A stretch of 64,000 nucleotides of DNA, taken from assembly GCF_009769165.1 (NCBI RefSeq), contig NZ_CP043476.1, positions 2,673,001-2,737,000 of the forward strand, in the 5' to 3' direction. How positions within the stretch are numbered: the stretch's first letter is position 1; each line of letters begins with the position of its first letter. Origin of the DNA: Xanthomonas hyacinthi. Lineage in GTDB: Bacteria; Pseudomonadota; Gammaproteobacteria; Xanthomonadales; Xanthomonadaceae. The position numbers and the translations under genes were made by a program. Shown here piece after piece: positions 42,021-51,361 of the stretch. A model generated the notes under the pieces. That model did no database searches and was not told the DNA's origin. It saw only the letters and a program-made list of their open reading frames with translations.

Positions 42021-42707
42021 TCAACGACGATATCCGACGCCATACTGGAAGAACGCCTGCGTCCGACCCACCATGACTTCCAGTCCTGCGGCGCTGCATG
42101 CGGCCTGCAGTTCGCTGCTCGTGTAGTAGTTCTTGACGATCGTGCTGACGTTGCCATTGCGTAGGCGGCGCTGCATCAGCTGGCCCTCCACGCCCACGAC
42201 GTGCGGCGACAGCGTCTCGGGTTTGGGCAGATTGTCGACGAAGAAGAATTTCCCGCCCACAGCGAGCGCGCTCGCTACCGCGCACAGGAACTGCAGCAGC
42301 AGCTCTCGCGGCACATGCGAAATCCAGAAGGCGAACACCACCGCGTCGTAGGTCCGCGCGGGTCGCCATTGGAAGAGATCTGCTTGCACCGTAAGCGCCC
42401 GCGGGTCTCGGGTCGCCGGATTGAACGCGAGCATCTGCGCCGATCCATCCACCATGGTCAGCGTGCGTGCCTTCGGCAGCAGCTGTACGCTCCAGATGCC
42501 GGTGCCGGCCGCGAGCTCGAGGATATCGCCCTGCAGTGCCGCGGCATCCAGCGCGTCCTGCACGACAGCGGCCTCTTCGCGCCAGCGGGCGTTCGGCGCG
42601 TCACCCTCATCGAACTGTCCGCGGCGGAACCACCAGTCGTCGTATTCGGTAGCGCGGTCGTCGTAGTAACGTTGTTGTTCGATCAGTACCGATTGCCATT
42701 GCGTCAT
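42021..42707 (-). CDS. class I SAM-dependent methyltransferase
   Basis: A 228-residue cytosolic methyltransferase. Motif I is LELAAGTGIWS, followed by MVDGSAQML, the acidic VQADLFQW and the strand AVVFAFWISHV. The N-terminal YYDDRATEYDDWWFRR is typical of small-molecule methyltransferases. The ATG at 42707 has AGGA seven bases upstream. It lies on the same strand just downstream of the phosphonate operon and may belong to it, in which case it could methylate the product or a precursor; the substrate is unknown. Confidence 0.8.
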   Translation of the reverse strand: MTQWQSVLIEQQRYYDDRATEYDDWWFRRGQFDEGDAPNARWREEAAVVQDALDAAALQGDILELAAGTGIWSVQLLPKARTLTMVDGSAQMLAFNPATRDPRALTVQADLFQWRPARTYDAVVFAFWISHVPRELLLQFLCAVASALAVGGKFFFVDNLPKPETLSPHVVGVEGQLMQRRLRNGNVSTIVKNYYTSSELQAACSAAGLEVMVGRTQAFFQYGVGYRR

Positions 42708-42766
42708 GATGCATTCCTGGTCTGTAGAAGTGGGGATGGCAGGCGCCAGCGTGTCGCCGGATGGCT

Positions 42767-43169
42767 TCAGGTCGCCTGCAATGCCTGCAAGCGACGCTGG
42801 CCCTGGCGGATGCCTGCGACGACTTCCGCGGTCGAACACATGTCCAGCACCTTGGGAGACTCAAGCATCGTGGGCGATGCGCCTTGGTCGAGCAGGAGCT
42901 TGTTCAAGCGCAAGAAACCGATGGTGCGAATGTTGGCTTCGGCGAACAGGTGGTGCTGATCGAGCTGCTGACAGCGGTGCGCGATGGCGTGCGTCGTTGC
43001 ATCGTCCAGCTCGGTAGGCGCGCCACAGTTCGAGGGCCGGCGCACCTGGGTGGCATCCCGGGAAAGGATGCTGTGCGCCTTTCGTAGGCACTGTCTGCAG
43101 TCGCTCGATCGTAACGTCAGCCTCGTCGCGGTGCTGCAGTTGCAGGCTCAGGGGCAGCACGGCAGACAT
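42767..43169 (-). pseudogene. small Fic-like gene with a frameshift, last part of the phosphonate operon
   Basis: The ATG at 43169 overlaps the tauE stop (TGATG) and starts a good protein beginning (SLQLQHRDEADVTIERLQ), but after about 30 residues that frame becomes nonsense-like. A second frame then continues sensibly from about 43095 to 42767: RKAHSILSRDATQ, HHLFAEANIRT, LRLNKLLLDQG, AEVVAGIRQGQ. One base change of frame near 43085-43110 would join them into about 134 residues. HLFAEANIRT aligns with the Fic motif HxFx(D/E)GNxR apart from Gly positions, so a degenerate Fido fold is possible. Either an indel/sequencing error or a decayed gene. Confidence 0.5.
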
Positions 43170-49185: not shown

Positions 49186-50399
49186 GGCAACGGCGCCCTC
49201 TCGGTTATCTCGGCGTATGCAACGGCAGGATCGGTAGCCGCTTCGGATTGGGGCATCCTCGGCTGTCGCAGATGCGCCGCAAAGCGTCTGCCGACCTCGC
49301 TCGGCGAAACGGTGGGGCGCGGCAGCGGATGCATGGATCCGGGGCGTATGCGCACATGGATAAAGTGCGGCCCGATGCTGTGCAGGGCGATCTCCAGCGC
49401 TTGTCGCAGCGCTGCATCGCCATTGCAGGCGTACGTCGCACGATAGCCGCAGGCCGCCGCGACGCTCGGGAAATCGATATTTCCCGAGTTGGTCGGCTGA
49501 CCGCCCGTACTATCGTGAACGCCGTTGTCCAGCAGCACGTGTATGAACCCTGCAGGTCGATAGCGGCCAATGGTGGAAAGGTTGCCGAGCTTCATCAGCG
49601 CTGCGCCATCGCCATCGAGCACGATCAGCGGATGCTCGGTATTGAGCGAGGCACCTAGGCCAACCGCACTGGCGCATCCCATGGATCCCACAAGGTAGAG
49701 GTTGCGCGCGTCGTCGCGGATGCAGCAGAGTTCCCGCCCGGTCTTGCCCGTGGTTGCGATGATGGCAGCGTCTTGCGATGCGATAGCGACCACTGCGCGC
49801 AACGCGTCTTCTCTGCTCGGCAGCGGACATTCGGGCCCTCCGAAGCGCGCCGTCGCCGCCGCCGGGGGCCGGATCTGCGTCTGCGCCAGCAGGTGCTCGT
49901 CTTCGAGCACGTTGGGCTCCACGATCAGGGCATATGGCAGATGCGTTTGTGCGATGCAGGCATATGCAGCGCGCAGGGTCGGCTCGACCTGGTCCGGCTC
50001 GGACGGGAAGCGTGCGTGCGGAATGCGCAACACGTCGAGCAGACTGTGGGTTATCTGGCCCATGACGGCATGCTGCGGTTCGTCTGCCACACCGTGGCAG
50101 CCGCGCCAGCTGCAGATCAGCAGGCAGGGGATCTGAAACACGTGGTTGAGTGAGGTCAACGGATTGACGGCGTTGCCCAGGCCTGAGTTCTGCAGCATGA
50201 CCACCGGCAGACGCCCGGCAAGATAGGCGCCTGCGGCGATGCCAATGGCTTCGCCCTCACTGGCTGCAGCGACATGAGGCGCATCCGGGTCGCTGAGCAC
50301 GCCATTGAGCAGCGATGTCAGATAGGAGCAGGGCACGCTTGTGTAGAAATTGAACCCCAGCCGCGACGCGGTCGCGACGAATTCTCTGCCGTTGATCAT
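49182..50399 (-). CDS. ppd: phosphonopyruvate decarboxylase
   Basis: Thiamine-diphosphate enzyme that turns phosphonopyruvate into phosphonoacetaldehyde, the step that pulls the unfavourable PEP mutase reaction forward. The 405-residue protein has the family N-terminus NFYTSVPCSYLTSLLN, the ThDP-binding GDG(x)26N region (LDGDGAALMKLGNLSTIG ... LLDN) and VHDSTGGQPT. The glutamate in AASEGEAIGIAAGAYL activates the cofactor. ATGA overlaps occur with pepM upstream and the N-oxygenase downstream. Confidence 0.93.
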   Translation of the reverse strand: MINGREFVATASRLGFNFYTSVPCSYLTSLLNGVLSDPDAPHVAAASEGEAIGIAAGAYLAGRLPVVMLQNSGLGNAVNPLTSLNHVFQIPCLLICSWRGCHGVADEPQHAVMGQITHSLLDVLRIPHARFPSEPDQVEPTLRAAYACIAQTHLPYALIVEPNVLEDEHLLAQTQIRPPAAATARFGGPECPLPSREDALRAVVAIASQDAAIIATTGKTGRELCCIRDDARNLYLVGSMGCASAVGLGASLNTEHPLIVLDGDGAALMKLGNLSTIGRYRPAGFIHVLLDNGVHDSTGGQPTNSGNIDFPSVAAACGYRATYACNGDAALRQALEIALHSIGPHFIHVRIRPGSMHPLPRPTVSPSEVGRRFAAHLRQPRMPQSEAATDPAVAYAEITERAPLP

Positions 50400-51361
50400 T
50401 GTGAAGCCTCGCCGCGGCGGCTTGCGTCTGTCGGCGGGGCCGCCTTTTTCTCCTTGGGGAGATAGATGCCCTCGGCCTGGGTCAGTTCGTCCTGATCGAC
50501 GAGGTCGAATATTTCCTTGACGCGTGGCAATTCCGCCTCGATGCCGCTCAGCGACCTTTCCCGGTGAATGGCTGCGCAGATCTTGCGCATGCTGGCGACG
50601 GACGCGCGCAGATTGTGGTTGGCCCAGATGATGCTTGCGATCTTCGCGTCGATGAATGCCTGGGTCGGCACCGCGTAATACGTGGTCGGCACGATCACCA
50701 AGGGACAGCGGTCTTGCCAGTGCTCGGCGAATTTCAGGATTTCCGCTCCATCGCTTTTCTTGGAATGAATCAGGATCGCATCCGCTCCAGCGGCGTGGTA
50801 TTGCTCGGCTCTGCTCAATGCCTCGGTGAGTCCACGGCCGACGATCAGGGCCTCGACCCGCGCCACGACGCAGAACGCGTCGTGGCTCTGGCTGTCCTTT
50901 GCGGCTTTGATCTTGCCTGCAAACTCGGAAGGGTCCGCCAGTTCCTGATCCTCACCGACGAAGGAATTGGTCTTGGGGAACATCTTGTCCTCCAGGCAGA
51001 CTCCGGCAACGTTGCGTTGGCACAGCTTCTGGACAAGCCTGCGCACGCTGTTGAAGTTGCCGTAGCCGGTATCGCCGTCCAGCAGGATCGGCAGATCGGT
51101 GCTGTCGGTCATGAATTCGACCACTTCCAATATTTGCGTCCAGGACGCTTCGTTCGCATCGCGCACGCCCAGCGAGGCGGAGATGGACAAACCCGATGCC
51201 CATATCCCCTCGAAGCCTGCTTCGGTGACAATGCGTGCCGATAGGCCGTTATGCGCTTCCATCAGGAAGGACGTGCCCTGTCCGGTGAGCAGGGCGCGCA
51301 GCTTCGAAGCCAGATATGCGTCGCGATGACGCCCATCAAATTGCTGGGATGAGGTGTTCAA
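50396..51361 (-). CDS. pepM: phosphoenolpyruvate mutase
   Basis: Forms the C-P bond by rearranging phosphoenolpyruvate to phosphonopyruvate, the entry step of nearly all phosphonate natural products. The 321-residue protein has the diagnostic EDKxxxKxNS motif (E124-S133, EDKMFPKTNS), metal-binding DGDTGYG at 95-101, and the N-terminal LMEAHNGLSARI. Translation appears to start at TTG 51361, with GGAG eight bases upstream; an ATG nearby is out of frame. It is the first gene of the operon, preceded by about 2 kb without genes. Confidence 0.95.
   Translation of the reverse strand: MNTSSQQFDGRHRDAYLASKLRALLTGQGTSFLMEAHNGLSARIVTEAGFEGIWASGLSISASLGVRDANEASWTQILEVVEFMTDSTDLPILLDGDTGYGNFNSVRRLVQKLCQRNVAGVCLEDKMFPKTNSFVGEDQELADPSEFAGKIKAAKDSQSHDAFCVVARVEALIVGRGLTEALSRAEQYHAAGADAILIHSKKSDGAEILKFAEHWQDRCPLVIVPTTYYAVPTQAFIDAKIASIIWANHNLRASVASMRKICAAIHRERSLSGIEAELPRVKEIFDLVDQDELTQAEGIYLPKEKKAAPPTDASRRGEASQ

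Follow-up and report, generated by a model that had tools for sequence, protein, structure and literature searches.

A horizontally acquired, predicted phosphonate operon in Xanthomonas hyacinthi, best read as leading to a hydroxamate of phosphonoacetate

An AsnB-like and an AurF-like enzyme have been proposed to build the hydroxamates of actinonin (ActJ/ActI) and matlystatin (MatC/MatA), as set out in the available portion of the account by Leipoldt et al. (PMC5719088), where TsnB9/TsnB7 of trichostatin is cited as an AsnB-like/AurF-like precedent. According to the available part of the work of Yu et al. (PMC13418202), SaHAT converts benzoic acid to benzohydroxamate with glutamyl hydroxamate, and three genes (SaHAT, SaAmOx and an accessory subunit) reconstitute benzohydroxamate formation in E. 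coli; in the reconstituted route the hydroxylation takes place on glutamine, from which the AsnB-like enzyme transfers the hydroxylamino group to the acid. Here we describe an operon of Xanthomonas hyacinthi in which such a pair is found among genes of phosphonate synthesis. It occupies positions 42021-51361 of a 64,000-nucleotide stretch of contig NZ_CP043476.1 (the window), in a host genome of 4.96 Mb on two contigs. The best reading of the predicted product, held with slightly better than even confidence, is that this horizontally acquired operon converts phosphonoacetate to a hydroxamate, which carries a metal-binding group.

The cluster comprises eight coding units arranged head-to-tail, all on the minus strand: pepM, ppd, an AurF-family oxygenase gene, a cytidylyltransferase-like gene, an AsnB-PhnY fusion, tauE, a remnant of a Fic gene and, last, a methyltransferase gene. 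By their coordinates, four junctions are 4-bp overlaps (pepM/ppd, ppd/aurF, aurF/nucleotidyltransferase and fusion/tauE), a 10-bp gap separates the nucleotidyltransferase from asnB, and the tauE stop shares 1 bp with the ATG of the Fic remnant. The same gene order is found in seven related loci, five from Xanthomonas and two from Paracidovorax, although loci L005 and L009 end, at the edge of the available DNA, before the last cluster genes; since seven loci keep this order, a chance arrangement is unlikely. Pfam matches in the cluster cover the AurF family, NTP-transferase, asparagine synthase with a glutamine amidotransferase domain, TauE and methyltransferase. Family scores, coordinates and the order in relatives bear out the gene list and near-gapless minus-strand layout given in a preliminary description made from the sequence. 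The features are:

50396..51361, minus strand: pepM, phosphoenolpyruvate mutase, 321 aa, TTG start (TIGR02320, PDB 1m1b)
49182..50399, minus strand: ppd, phosphonopyruvate decarboxylase, 405 aa (TIGR03297)
48232..49185, minus strand: AurF-family diiron oxygenase, 317 aa, candidate N-oxygenase (PF11583)
47510..48235, minus strand: LicC/PntC-like nucleotidyltransferase, 241 aa from the ATG at 48235 (kin 1jyk, 6pd1)
44008..47499, minus strand: AsnB-like amidotransferase (about residues 1-675) fused in frame to a PhnY-type dehydrogenase (about 686-1157), 1163 aa (PF00733, TIGR03250)
43169..44011, minus strand: predicted TauE/SafE-family exporter, 280 aa (PF01925)
42767..43169, minus strand: remnant of an AnkX-type Fic gene (frames, sequence and gap size in relatives)
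42021..42707, minus strand: DhpI-like S-adenosylmethionine (SAM) methyltransferase, 228 aa (sequence and fold kinship)
51362..53444, no strand: AT-rich spacer upstream of the operon (GC about 0.55)

The early steps are a supported prediction that rests on curated equivalog scores. PepM scores 375.7 bits in the NCBIfam model TIGR02320 (cut-off 319.55), which places it with true phosphoenolpyruvate (PEP) mutases. It matches PDB 1m1b (E 7.3e-110), with which the stretch EDK-x-FPK-x-NS, which we take to be the PEP mutase hallmark motif, is aligned, and an alignment of start regions shows its TTG start to be shared with the five Xanthomonas relatives. Ppd reaches 422.3 in TIGR03297 (cut-off 312.5), so that the step driving the mutase forward is present, and the aldehyde dehydrogenase (ALDH) part of 44008-47499 scores 744.9 in TIGR03250 (cut-off 635.65), at the level of the phosphonoacetaldehyde dehydrogenase equivalog. 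PEP would be converted by these three enzymes to phosphonopyruvate, phosphonoacetaldehyde and phosphonoacetate; the same course, from PEP mutase and Ppd to phosphonoacetaldehyde and by a PhnY-type ALDH to phosphonoacetate, had been proposed in the preliminary description, and scores above the cut-offs now back it.

The AurF-like protein matches PF11583 with 79.9 bits (cut-off 29.6), and its family is homologous to AurF (E 1.1e-14). It is far from AurF proper, the 4-aminobenzoate N-oxygenase, scoring 14.9 bits in that NCBIfam equivalog against a cut-off of 620. Seven aligned positions that presumably hold the iron ligands of AurF are kept in the window's protein and in the aligned set of 34 AurF-like proteins, apart from one Glu to Asp exchange in 1 of the 34. 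That protein, from X. vasicola (P0004), also has a repeated stretch as its C-terminal tail. The Asn_synthase part of the fusion matches PF00733 with 270.4 bits (cut-off 21); among the matches listed, its nearest named kin outside the cluster, at 58-68% identity, are from Agrobacterium vitis, Curtobacterium and Cellulomonas.

A pattern-based scan of 84,980 species genomes for the AurF-like family yielded 68 loci, which are not fully independent because some share a contig (L047 with L069, L048 with L051). The matlystatin strain, Actinomadura atramentaria DSM 43919, supplies one of them (L052). An AsnB-like gene lies in the fetched flank of 39 of the 61 loci outside Xanthomonas and Paracidovorax, within 1 kb in 18 and within 3 kb in 34. 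In a genome neighbourhood comparison of the kind that had been suggested, pepM, AurF-like and AsnB genes occur together in the seven relatives, and two further loci combine AurF-like and AsnB genes with a PepM-like gene. One of these, L077, in a genome of the family of Agreia and the sole match among 398 genomes of that family, holds a nucleotidyltransferase, AsnB (58%), a two-piece Ppd, a PepM-like protein, an ALDH and AurF in one run; its Ppd (7825-8846) consists of two overlapping frames that resemble the alpha and beta subunits of sulfopyruvate decarboxylase. The other, L057 from Streptomyces, has asnB, aurF, a Ppd above the cut-off and a PepM-like gene under it. Three more Streptomyces loci (L041, L043 and L059) are at most candidate phosphonate clusters, there being no pepM match in the fetched DNA. 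By eye, these three and L057 carry asnB-aurF with TauD-, aminotransferase-, PanC- and hydroxyacid dehydrogenase-like genes, and three of the four have a helix-turn-helix-cupin-like gene; the PepM match is in L057 alone. On the tree of AurF-like proteins, four changes are required to account for the pepM-linked label; supported branches force three or more of these, and losses could explain some. Of the 65 inner branches of this tree 19 are open, and a long-branch join that may involve the window's group was flagged.

From the described systems, AurF-like/AsnB-like pairs are known as a hydroxamate module, and it is this precedent that mainly supports a hydroxamate here. The two enzymes would build it on the carboxylate of phosphonoacetate by either of two routes: glutamyl hydroxamate may be made and its hydroxylamino group moved, or amidation may come first and N-oxygenation second. 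The preliminary description had AsnB form an amide that is then N-hydroxylated; precedent favors its assignment of a hydroxamate to the pair, and the order it gave is one of the two recorded routes.

Several observations weigh against a hydroxamate of phosphonoacetate. No AsnB match is found in the fetched flank of 22 of the 61 distant AurF-like loci, and at the 39 others the AsnB shares just 26-34% identity with that of the window; because identity is this low, the window and distant pairs may work differently. In the genomes of the host, L077 and P. anthurii no relative was seen of a nucleotidyltransferase-like protein that often neighbors AurF in actinobacteria and is our own guess at the TsnB6 accessory subunit; an empty outcome of this search does not show absence. 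In L077, PepM scores 288.5 (cut-off 319.55) and the ALDH 266.5 in TIGR03250 (cut-off 635.65), with other ALDH families scoring higher; the PepM-like proteins of L057 (289.6) and L015 (284.6) likewise miss the TIGR02320 cut-off, and in L015 AurF adjoins the PepM-like gene with no AsnB match in reach. The host genome has one enolase gene and therefore no spare target enzyme, so that a second enolase as a means of self-resistance is ruled out. Lastly, clusters of Rhizobium leguminosarum (L073) and R. rhizoryzae (L074) hold pepM, ppd, a nucleotidyltransferase and AsnB (43%), and have no AurF match despite the AsnB and nucleotidyltransferase.

The rhizobial clusters, together with the distance of the window AsnB branch from most AurF-linked AsnBs, speak for an amide product instead. 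AsnB would then yield phosphonoacetamide or a related compound, the AurF-like enzyme would oxidize, for instance, an amine or a carbon, and no hydroxamate would form. We regard this as unlikely, given that the AurF-like gene is present in 7 of 7 related loci and recurs with AsnB in the distant loci counted above, and that the rhizobial clusters themselves encode a ferritin-like, possibly diiron protein. These proteins (L073 6953-7825, the one without a Pfam match, and L074 6781-7740) were recognized by eye and could be another type of N-oxygenase.

A hydroxamate of phosphonoacetate, if it is formed as we favor, may be processed further. The nucleotidyltransferase matches NTP_transf_3 with 44 bits (cut-off 27) and falls below every NCBIfam cut-off among the 25 families shown; its nearest solved sequences are 1jyk (LicC, CTP:phosphocholine cytidylyltransferase; E 1.1e-11) and 6pd1 (E 1.4e-11). 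Its probable role is to convert the phosphonate to a cytidine monophosphate (CMP) ester, as an activated or capped form. The last gene product is closer to DhpI, in sequence and fold, than to other SAM methyltransferases; it is DhpI-like, i.e., like a phosphonate O-methyltransferase, and is predicted to O-methylate the phosphonate. TauE (PF01925, 128.4 bits; cut-off 32.6) would export the product. Because nucleotidyltransferase, Fic and methyltransferase genes are also present, free phosphonoacetohydroxamate, the product named in the preliminary description, need not be the end product; the hydroxamate part of that proposal has the support of precedent, while three genes had been given no role in it.

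The Fic gene is best understood from the relatives. There, a gap of about 1.1 kb from tauE to the Fic end is found, and a full gene of about 472 codons lies between tauE and the methyltransferase gene; it is open in four of the five relatives that cover it (L006, L007, L010 and L011) and frameshifted in L008. Its Fic domain has the AnkX-like fold that marks an AnkX-type protein, and the H-x-F-x-x-A-N core is nearly invariant in the Fic alignment. The product fits an AnkX that uses cytidine diphosphate (CDP)-choline; a CDP-linked donor is suggested by its kin and by the neighboring cytidylyltransferase-like gene. In the window, the 92-aa remnant has no Pfam match and a weak NCBIfam AnkX match (E 7.2e-06) far under the family cut-off. 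It retains both ends of the gene, in different frames, with about 1 kb of the middle gone through an internal deletion. The fragment had earlier been called Fic-like; that kinship holds, and the fragment is now seen as what a deletion left of an AnkX-type gene of about 472 codons. The first 120 residues of the Fic protein in L007 (9384-10799) have, in a low-confidence part of the model, a type III chaperone/YbjN-like fold (ExsC, InvB, Spa15, DR_1245). As a candidate type III chaperone this N-terminal part is weak: its predicted local distance difference test (pLDDT) values are 25-60, and DR_1245 reaches a comparable Z, which points to a general fold.

Where relatives have the gene intact, the AnkX-type enzyme would use or remove the CMP of this ester, a step lost in the window strain. 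We know of no Fic enzyme with a biosynthetic role on a small metabolite, no search aimed at this having been made. The presence of nucleotidyltransferase and AnkX-type Fic genes in one operon also suits a quite unlikely ester route, in which CMP-phosphonoacetate is made, the Fic enzyme passes its phosphonate on to a small alcohol, and AsnB and AurF act elsewhere on the molecule; a nucleotide-phosphonoacetate intermediate has been proposed for O-phosphonoacetic acid serine (PMC12288639, in its available part). This route sits poorly with a Fic gene broken in the window and in L008 while the window core genes stay open, and with L077, which has a nucleotidyltransferase and no Fic match. Alternatively, a CMP-phosphonate could be made and then attached by an AnkX-type Fic enzyme to a macromolecule, either protein or glycan. 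In favor of this, LicC/PntC-like enzymes have a part in decorating the cell surface, the target of AnkX is a protein, and AnkX structures hold CMP-type ligands, as judged from their titles; set against this, no glycosyltransferase or LicD-like gene is among the nine cluster genes, and a small product that is exported is what TauE and the DhpI-like methyltransferase suggest. We hold such decoration to be very unlikely. A bolder form of the hydroxamate reading is tentative and, in our judgment, rather unlikely: that phosphonoacetohydroxamate, either as such or as a CMP or O-methyl ester, is produced by plant-associated Xanthomonas and Paracidovorax, and that an AnkX-type Fic enzyme, working on a small metabolite, handles the CMP-activated phosphonate.

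The cluster is best explained as a horizontally acquired cassette on foreign-looking DNA. The AurF-like gene is absent from 19 of 19 congeners and from all 59 relatives of a wider set that includes them. In 15 of the 19, the flanking TonB-receptor and sigma-54-regulator genes lie about 0.3-1.7 kb apart (between match edges), i.e., as an empty site; the remaining four have neither gene at the thresholds used. GC is 0.61-0.68 over the cluster genes, about 0.55 in the spacer upstream of pepM and 0.65-0.75 in the flanks. The sigma-54 regulator (53445-55679) was rejected as the operon's own, as it stays by the TonB gene in those 15 cluster-free congeners; a search of the 450 bases before the window pepM revealed no sigma-54-type site. 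In X. dyei L005 and X. hortorum L006 the spacer is shorter by about 0.9 kb, and most of the window's spacer has no match in them.

The fusion of AsnB and dehydrogenase, correctly identified at first, is a derived state: the two are separate genes in all six relatives that cover both, which rules the fusion out as a pathway novelty. They lie in different frames in four Xanthomonas loci, so that fusion required a lost stop and a length change, and in the same frame behind a stop in two Paracidovorax loci. No protein joining AsnB and ALDH domains was seen among the 120 matches listed of 5262 (8000 candidates scored). The cluster decays in places, and L007 and L011 look complete; the window strain's copy may be partly decayed. 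It is possible, if doubtful, that the window operon no longer yields its product at all, which is compatible with the other readings. The Fic remnant and derived fusion, the Fic frameshift in L008 and the transposon copies in X. hortorum L006 (strain jj2001; two 99%-identical transposase-bearing insertions, 6351-7450 and 8401-9500, in pepM and ppd) are in keeping with this, and the full-length open frames of seven of the eight window units, the fused one included, speak against it.

The preliminary description did not recognize this exact gene set from any described pathway, and a full-text search of the open-licence PMC literature, a scope that leaves most subscription papers outside, turned up no paper recognized as describing it. 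The operon compactly brings together phosphonoacetate synthesis and the assembly of a hydroxamate by AurF/AsnB, each of them a known module. This pairing is seen in the Xanthomonas/Paracidovorax group and again in one cluster of a microbacterial-family genome and one of Streptomyces. The greatest novelty would lie in CMP activation together with the action of an AnkX-type Fic enzyme on the CMP ester, and the step order, the role of CMP activation and a small-molecule task for Fic become testable with purified enzymes.

Among known systems, the trichostatin/benzohydroxamate cassette TsnB6-TsnB7-TsnB9 (SaAmOx-AS, SaAmOx, SaHAT; PMC13418202) is like the window in having AurF-like and AsnB-like enzymes that act on a carboxylic acid, as far as its available text describes; the window pair differs in sitting in a phosphonate pathway, in having no accessory-subunit candidate found, and in an AsnB from a distant branch. 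Actinonin ActI/ActJ and matlystatin MatA/MatC (available part of PMC5719088) likewise combine AurF-like and AsnB-like enzymes, which are proposed to form the hydroxamate, there on an alkyl-succinyl-CoA and with no phosphonate genes. The O-phosphonoacetic acid serine pathway shares PepM, Ppd, an aldehyde dehydrogenase leading to phosphonoacetate and a proposed nucleotide-phosphonoacetate; the available parts of its accounts (PMC12288639, PMC12723261) do not mention the AurF/AsnB hydroxamate module seen in the window. DhpI of dehydrophos is like the window's last gene in sequence and fold, with about 34% identity by structural alignment. AnkX, the CDP-choline-dependent Fic phosphocholine transferase, has a Fic domain like that of the relatives' protein, whose gene lies in a biosynthetic operon and whose N-terminal half is different; the window holds a remnant only. 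Finally, SF-2312, a natural phosphonate hydroxamate and enolase inhibitor, likewise combines phosphonate and hydroxamate in one small molecule, but is cyclic, and phosphonoacetohydroxamate is described as synthesized (PMC12288639, available part). If the bolder proposal is true, phosphonoacetohydroxamate, an enolase inhibitor so far described as synthetic, also occurs naturally; and a phosphonohydroxamate product would mean that SF-2312-like chemistry is reached in nature by more than one route.

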